A stretch of DNA of 10,970 bases from Syntrophaceae bacterium (lineage in GTDB: Bacteria > Desulfobacterota > SM23-61), in NCBI GenBank assembly GCA_003154025.1, contig PMCE01000520.1, positions 1 through 10,970 of the forward strand, in the 5' to 3' direction. The notes beneath the pieces are model-generated. The model did no database searches, was not told the origin of the DNA, and worked only from the letters and a program-made list of their open reading frames with translations. Within the stretch, counting starts at the first letter, position 1. Each line of letters opens with the position of its first letter. Of this stretch, positions 7,621 to 8,830 are shown one piece after another. The position numbers were made by a program, and so were the translations under genes.

Positions 7621-7629
7621 AGGAGGTGA
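7621..7629 (+). promoter_or_regulatory. Very strong Shine-Dalgarno of the tube gene
   Basis: AGGAGGTGA is a full match to the 3' end of 16S rRNA and lies three to four bases before the ATG at 7633. It suggests high translation, as expected for a structural protein needed in many copies. Confidence 0.8.
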
Positions 7630-7632
7630 AAG

Positions 7633-8157
7633 ATGGCCCAATTTACGGTGAACCCCCAGCGGTTCGATCCCTACAAGAACTTCAAGTTTCGGATTAAATG
7701 GGATGGCCGCTACGTGGCCGGGATCAGCAAGGTCAGCGGTCTGAGGCGGAAAACCGAAGTGATCGTGCATCGGGAAGGGGGAGACCCCAGCACCGGCCGC
7801 AAATCTCCGGGCCGGACGGAATTCGACCCGATCACCCTGGAACGCGGGGTCACCCACGATTTGGAGTTTGAGAGATGGGCCAATAAAGTTTGGAATTTCG
7901 GGGCCGGGCTGGGGATGGAGGTCTCCCTGAGAGATTTCCGCAAGGATATCATCATCGAGCTCTACAACGAAGCCGGCCAGCTGGCCATGGCCTACAGGAT
8001 TTACCGTTGCTGGGTTTCCGAATACGAGGCCCTGCCGGGGTTAGACGCCAATCACTCCGCAGTGGCCATACAGACCATCGTATTGCAGAATGAAGGATGG
8101 GAGAGGGACTACTCCATCCCCGAGCCGACAGAACCGTCCTTTACCGAGCCGGCCTGA
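7633..8157 (+). CDS. Contractile injection system inner-tube protein, T4 gp19-like
   Basis: A 174-residue protein of the phage T4 gp19/tail-tube family, as in the tube subunits of phage tails and extracellular contractile injection systems (Afp/PVC-like). Hexamers of such proteins stack into the rigid tube that is driven through a target membrane. Signatures are NFKFRIKWDGRYVAGISKVSGL (16-37), TEVIVHREGG (41-50), PITLERGVTHDLEFERWANKV (66-86), RKDIIIELYNEAGQ (103-116), and the family ending EALPGLDANHSAVAIQTIVLQNEGWERD (132-159). A proline-rich tail PEPTEPSFTEPA (163-174) goes beyond the usual length of about 150. The next gene, 76 bases on, encodes a tube-adaptor protein, the neighbour expected in injection-system clusters. 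No sheath, baseplate or ATPase gene is in view. Confidence 0.92.
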   Translation: MAQFTVNPQRFDPYKNFKFRIKWDGRYVAGISKVSGLRRKTEVIVHREGGDPSTGRKSPGRTEFDPITLERGVTHDLEFERWANKVWNFGAGLGMEVSLRDFRKDIIIELYNEAGQLAMAYRIYRCWVSEYEALPGLDANHSAVAIQTIVLQNEGWERDYSIPEPTEPSFTEPA

Positions 8158-8233
8158 ATCATCCACCTGCGGATTTCCGCTTCCGCTCATCCCCTCATGG
8201 CTCGAGAGCCCAGGGGTAAAGGAGTTTCGCCCG

Positions 8234-8830
8234 ATGAAATACCCCCGATCCCCGGAAGTCCAGAAAGGGGCCTTTATTCAAATCGATGGACAATCCCCCC
8301 ATGGGCGGGTGATTCCTTTCCAGTATAACCCGGAGACCATTTCCCGGAAAGTTGCCGCCCCGGAAACCCCTGAAGAACAACGACGATCCCCGCGGGAGAC
8401 GATTACCTTTACCTTGGTATACGACGCCGCCGATTATTTGGAGACTCCCGACCAAAACAAGCGCATCGTGGAAAGTGGAATCTATGCTGAATTATCCGCC
8501 CTGGAGCTGTTACTCCACCCGGGGAACCCCGATGGAAGGGAAATCGGCTTTCTGGGAATCGGAAACGCCGGTGAGAACCGGGAATCCCTGACCCTGTGGG
8601 CTTGGGGGGATAGAAGAATTTTGCCCGTCCGGATCACCGAACTGCAAATAAAGGAAAAAATGTTTGATCCCCGGCTCAACCCCATTCGAGCGGAGATTGA
8701 AGTGACGATGCAGGCGCTCCAGGAAGAGGACCTGACCAAGGACCAAAAAGGGTATGAGATCTGGAAGGCCCACATGTCCGCCAGGAACATCCTGGCCCAG
8801 GCGGTCTACCAAAAAGGGTCAGGCCTTTAG
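8234..8830 (+). CDS. CIS_tube-type tube/hub adaptor protein without LysM domain
   Basis: A 198-residue protein resembling the N-terminal domain of the Afp7/Pvc7-type component that joins the inner tube to the spike hub. Its opening KGAFIQIDGQSPHGRVIPFQYNPETISRKV (11-40) is characteristic: a short strand, then PFQYNPE. Next come ETITFTLVYDAADYLE (55-70), YAELSALELLLHP (84-96), LTLWAWGDRRILPVRITELQIKEKMFDPRLNPIRAEIEVTMQAL (119-162) and a helical tail (163-198). Full-length homologues usually carry a LysM domain after the MQAL-type strand; here only about 36 residues remain, with no LysM pattern. AAAGGAG (8218-8224), nine bases upstream, fixes the start at 8234. The frame stays open upstream to 8090, inside the tube gene, but that extension is Pro/Ser-rich and unsupported. 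The last 12 bases overlap the convergent MmgE/PrpD gene. Confidence 0.85.
   Translation: MKYPRSPEVQKGAFIQIDGQSPHGRVIPFQYNPETISRKVAAPETPEEQRRSPRETITFTLVYDAADYLETPDQNKRIVESGIYAELSALELLLHPGNPDGREIGFLGIGNAGENRESLTLWAWGDRRILPVRITELQIKEKMFDPRLNPIRAEIEVTMQALQEEDLTKDQKGYEIWKAHMSARNILAQAVYQKGSGL

Follow-up and report, generated by a model that had tools for sequence, protein, structure and literature searches.

Two injection-system genes at the locus

The window, by which we mean the whole 10,970-base stretch of DNA analysed here, carries on its forward strand two genes for parts of a contractile injection system (CIS), each preceded by a ribosome-binding site read from the sequence:

7621-7629, forward strand: ribosome-binding site AGGAGGTGA of the tube gene, with six bases from AGGAGG to the ATG at 7633
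7633-8157, forward strand: eCIS inner-tube gene (gp19 fold, CIS1/All3324-like), 174 aa
8219-8224, forward strand: ribosome-binding site AAGGAG of the adaptor gene, nine bases before the ATG at 8234
8234-8830, forward strand: tube-initiator/adaptor gene (Afp7/Pvc7/Alg7-type beta-barrel ring domain, without LysM tail), 198 aa

The first-pass annotation had read these as a gp19-like tube gene and a CIS_tube adaptor gene with intact frames, and our searches agreed on both identities and on the frames, which are open. The tube gene matched PF06841 (E 1.4e-43, 148.4 bits, cut-off 28.2) and TIGR02241 (144.9 bits, cut-off 62.4), which makes it a member of Phage_T4_gp19/TIGR02241, and its predicted structure (model mean pLDDT 75.7) matched the gp19/Hcp fold. 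The NCBIfam equivalog cut-offs were not reached, with CIS5_fam at 53.4 against 260 bits and CIS1_fam at 47.5 against 220. A tube-adaptor (CIS5) identity for 7633-8157, where CIS5 scored slightly above CIS1 and each fell far below its cut-off, was considered and rejected; we call the gene a tube because inner tubes were favoured among its PDB sequence matches and because a single gp19-type match was present in each of 36 loci (restricted to 10 kb flanks). The tube was 64-79% identical to the tubes in those of loci L001-L080 that showed one, and its relatives P0002 and P0003 are full-length, open proteins at 95% identity. A further protein, P0001, is a 265-aa tube whose N-terminal half is partly repeated in tandem and may be an assembly artefact. 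The strong ribosome site that had been credited to the tube gene is present at 7621-7629; the promoter of its own that had also been claimed did not hold up, as the one predicted promoter is at chance level, given a mean of 0.9 in shuffled sequence.

For the adaptor, the open reading frame as listed begins at 8090, and the AAGGAG site favours the ATG at 8234 as the likely start, giving 198 aa. This protein belongs to PF19266 CIS_tube (E 8e-8, 32.6 bits, cut-off 27), and Foldseek and VIA both matched it to the initiator-ring fold of 7aeb_M, 6rao_G and 6j0n_b (Foldseek E about 4e-6 to 7e-6), with the baseplate proteins of phages P1 and A-1(L) tying by VIA Z. It has the motif FQYNPET in common with its relatives. 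Alg7 is described with a C-terminal LysM domain (PMC8894135); in the window adaptor no such domain is present, since the protein ends with a helix after its barrel and holds no second Pfam domain. Its nearest relatives are P0122 (83% identity, full length) and P0123 (85%), the latter starting about 25 residues late and so serving as a partial witness, and the window adaptor shares a clade with nine proteins, P0122 to P0129 and P0134 (10 rows, SH-aLRT 97). Among the best 80 of 160 GTDB-representative loci no adaptor relative exceeded 39% identity, and none exceeded 45% in the 395 genomes of our first phylum sample.

The pair stands apart from other injection-system genes

The tube and adaptor genes lie 76 bases apart, with a TAXI gene (NMT1_3) upstream on the same strand and a convergent MmgE/PrpD gene and CbiA/ParA-type ATPase gene downstream. 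Among the 120 PrpD homologues listed, the nearest ones that carry names come from Chloroflexi, Dehalococcoidia, Syntrophales and Thermodesulfobacteriota; the host might belong to Thermodesulfobacteriota, a guess based on resemblance of the kinase receiver domain. All six frames of the window were searched by hmmsearch with a set of 20 profiles derived from CIS loci, including sheath, T4-type baseplate, Pvc16, AAA+, hub, OB spike, gp25 and baseplate-J, where the hub label of one profile cluster comes from its position beside the OB spike, one scanned member having no Pfam match. Only the tube (1.7e-103) and the adaptor (1.9e-51) were found; the other 18 profiles gave chance-level scores, the best being that of the AAA profile, at 0.053 for the ParA-type ATPase. 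The earlier view of a pair standing alone between the TAXI gene and convergent metabolic genes is thus borne out. Decay with leftover CIS relics in the window was also considered and was rejected on these chance-level scores. An eCIS operon is defined in PMC8213781 by at least ten core genes in proximity, and the two CIS genes of the window fall outside that definition; nor is the locus a tailed prophage by its content, as a Pfam scan of the nine window proteins recognised no further phage structural genes and no lysogeny genes. No RNA genes were found in the window. At 119-583 on the reverse strand lies a GIY-YIG domain gene of lower GC (0.47) with codon usage unlike the other scored window genes. 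The codon usage of the pair is close to that of its neighbours, with scores of 0.234 for the tube and 0.151 for the adaptor, just outside the 0.17-0.23 of the four neighbours that formed the reference set.

Evaluating the arrangement in relatives, we scanned GTDB representatives with the adaptor alignment and used the best 80 of 160 relatives together with one IMG/VR locus, making 81 loci. Within 3.5 kb after the adaptor, a small gene that we call c6 followed in 79 of the 81 and a gp27-like hub gene in 77, and in the four loci without gp27 the contig ends within 320 bases of the adaptor, so the first-pass statement that relatives sit among other CIS genes was right. By eye c6 looks LysM-like, and the two c6 rows scanned (L055 and L010) had no Pfam match. 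The first phylum sample contributed eleven more adaptor rows in 10 genomes (one of them, G001, being also L065), and c6 and gp27 were present in all eleven. Tube and adaptor were separated by 4,943 to 9,207 bases in 28/28 loci showing both and by 4.4-12.6 kb in all nine first-phylum genomes with both (G001 again being also L065). Among 18 adaptor-bearing plasmid records, several of which are near-copies of one another, 17 also carried a tube, at least 4.9 kb away and once on opposite strands, and the 18th had no tube in the same record. The 76-base spacing of the window is without parallel in the loci, genomes and plasmids compared.

One explanation of such a pair is that a CIS cluster was deleted and two genes survived by chance, open because the loss is recent. 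The usual order of tube and then adaptor on one strand would allow this, since the pair would result from a single internal deletion once the flanking parts were also lost, and the patchy occurrence of the tube (13/395 and 19/396 sampled genomes) is in keeping with it. The adaptor frame and the convergent PrpD frame share their final 12 bases (8819-8830), which leaves no room between the two genes for remains of a former downstream cluster. Speaking against a young relic, no fragment of other CIS parts occurs in the window, the tube has not loosened in sequence and close relatives are open (tubes P0002 and P0003, adaptor P0122, with P0123 partial); homologues existing only as degraded relics were not seen among the relatives compared as proteins. 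The adaptor/PrpD neighbourhood, too, is probably kept in a relative, as suggested by the same 16488-base longest contig listed for P0123 (adaptor, 85%) and P0177 (PrpD, 90%). The adaptor P0124 (56%) and the tube P0038 (82%) likewise both list 9402 bases, a length that the usual tube-adaptor spacing would also fit. We regard a recent relic as unlikely.

Phages provide another conceivable source, in which case mobile elements would have carried the pair as domesticated phage cargo or defence cargo, acting as a tube-like decoy or inhibitor. A case that could be read this way is L102:2500-3036 (forward strand), a lone eCIS-type tube (70%) in opposite orientation to an adjoining FII-type phage tube and likely sheath gene. 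Next to the window pair no mobile gene was recognised, and 50,697 phage records contained no adaptor match; tubes occurred there in just 6 records, all from Streptomyces phages and all distant (33-34%). This origin is very improbable. In IMG/VR the adaptor was found at one locus with the alignment query and at none with the single-protein query.

The tube is constrained and the adaptor divergent

Conservation was assessed against 60 sheath-borne tube rows (a few of them one gene fetched twice), which define 39 positions conserved at 95% or more. The window tube changes 0/39 of these near-invariant positions, and in leave-one-out comparisons on 27 to 33 positions, 51 of the 60 sheath-borne rows showed 0 or 1 change and 9 showed 2 to 9. 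Compared with the CIS1 inner tubes (Anabaena All3324, Algoriphagus Alg1, Afp1 and Pvc1), the window tube thus has the same gp19 fold and all near-invariant positions, and differs in that sheath, baseplate-wedge and hub genes are missing from the window. Among lone tubes, L119 retains 39/39 and L118 37/39 of the near-invariant positions, so that the constraint on the tube is explicable without a sheath. Other lone tubes are looser, with changes at 6/39 positions in L147, 4/39 in L102 and 8/28 in L120.

Adaptor sequences gave a different picture, the window adaptor averaging 37% identity to 28 cluster adaptors against a mean of 53% among those 28, as compared with 75% for the window tube against 78% among the cluster tubes of the 28 loci. 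It changes 8/43 near-invariant positions; among the 81 cluster adaptors, 75 had at most five changes and four had at least eight. The divergence of the window adaptor is high yet not unique, since two cluster adaptors, L064 and L065, come close to it with 39-40% mean identity. Relative to Afp7/Pvc7/Alg7 (PF19266), then, it has the same beta-barrel initiator fold and a motif common to the relatives, and is set apart by its missing LysM tail, by the absence of c6 and gp27 after it and by this unusual divergence.

A tube that still works for a full CIS would equally be expected to be conserved at 39/39 positions, and such a CIS may exist elsewhere in the window's genome. The pair would then be an auxiliary tube and initiator set that supplies, or exchanges with, parts of a contractile system whose genes lie elsewhere in that genome. 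This reading gains from the match to working tubes at every near-invariant position, from the orphan hcp gene described beside a single T6SS cluster (PMC5256989), which is likewise a tube-ring gene apart from its machine, and from genome G758, where a sheath-borne tube (L134) coexists with a tube that has no CIS neighbour (L152). The genome with that Hcp orphan also encodes a T6SS (PMC5256989), whereas three lone-tube genomes have no CIS sheath match. Supply in trans also asks the adaptor to fit a distant hub, yet it is the more divergent protein of the two, and none of the 77 loci with room lacked a nearby gp27 after the adaptor. We consider this explanation somewhat doubtful.

Lone tubes recur in other genomes

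A tube at E 1e-20 or better was present in 13/395 genomes of the first phylum sample, with a sheath beside it in 10 and none in G061 (tube 71%), G361 (71%) and G063 (51%). Genome-wide, the CIS sheath profile matched in the same proportion, 10/13, with no match in G061, G361 and G063 (genomes of unstated completeness). The adaptor profile matched in 9/13, being absent from these three and from G161, and the baseplate-J profile in 8/13, being absent from the three and also from G001 and G161, two further misses that make it the weaker test. The Pfam sheath model is weak for CIS sheaths, the CIS sheath of G167 scoring only 26 bits. The three genomes belong to three different classes, and no further tube was found in the classes of G361 (23 genomes), G063 (8) and G061 (5). 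Their tubes form one clade with support of 100/97 in a 70-row tree whose bootstrap had not settled; the window tube falls outside this clade, its placement not being settled by the same tree, and L120 forms a long branch.

The second phylum sample revealed tubes in 19/396 genomes at 21 places, where the sheath was adjacent at 15 and not at 6, and at those six no CIS profile other than the tube matched in the surrounding 16.5 to 19.8 kb. Four of the six places, in as many genomes, carry distant gp19 proteins (36-41%; L148-L151). Among individual loci, the L118 tube is flanked on either side by about 9.5 kb free of CIS genes; L119 and L120 are whole short contigs, and one flank of the L120 tube measures only about 0.4 kb. 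At L118:8687-10058 (forward strand) the lone tube comes directly after a peptidoglycan-binding and M15 peptidase gene, and the L147 tube lies near dnaG. At L120:7375-8073 (reverse strand) the N-terminal arm of the tube is replaced by a hydrophobic, signal-peptide-like stretch, read by eye, that ends in a cysteine in poor lipobox context, and the start is preceded by a GGAGG ribosome site; going by these features, L120 is possibly an exported or anchored tube protein.

No neighbour common to lone tubes was recognised among those scanned (L118, L119, L120, L147 and L152), and no adaptor stood beside any lone tube read outside the window. Lone CIS tubes thus occur repeatedly, and among the cases that could be read the initiator ring gene is kept beside the tube in the window alone. 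No report of lone CIS tubes was found among the listed titles and abstract openings of open-licence PMC literature.

A tube that may work without a sheath

We favour, at a probability of roughly 0.42, the reading that the pair is a functional remnant unit of an eCIS that has been exapted and now works without a sheath as an adaptor-nucleated tube or ring stack, and we place it ahead of supply to a distant system and of a young relic. That a tube can stand alone without a CIS sheath is possible, as the three other lone-tube genomes have no sheath match. In terms of function, the simplest view is that the two proteins still build what they can by themselves, a starter ring and a tube, and the looser sequence of the adaptor fits the loss of hub and wedge partners. 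By inference, the adaptor would form a hexameric starter or cap ring onto which gp19-like tube protomers would stack, and the product would be a non-contractile tube or ring stack. Because neither protein has an obvious signal peptide by eye, the assembly would be cytoplasmic unless cells lyse. It might act as a scaffold, container, matrix filament or Hcp-like carrier.

A possible point of comparison comes from the granules of Ca. Accumulibacter, where a gp19-domain protein is described as the most abundant in one cluster of proteins predicted to form aggregates and to be secreted or extracellular, and where the authors suggest this Phage_T4_gp19 protein as the subunit of a tubular protein (PMC12019908). 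The Ca. Accumulibacter protein may itself belong to a full CIS.

More tentatively than for the window itself, we propose that several phyla may keep free-standing CIS tubes as a separate sheathless class, in which the window adaptor would be a nucleator and L120 perhaps an exported or membrane-anchored member. Tail tubes are known as the piston of contractile machines. If a tube and its starter ring can be kept alone over the long term, tube assembly would have found a second use as an independent structural element, in the way that phage tails turned into injection systems, and, if this is true, genome surveys should not read a tube gene as evidence of an injection system.
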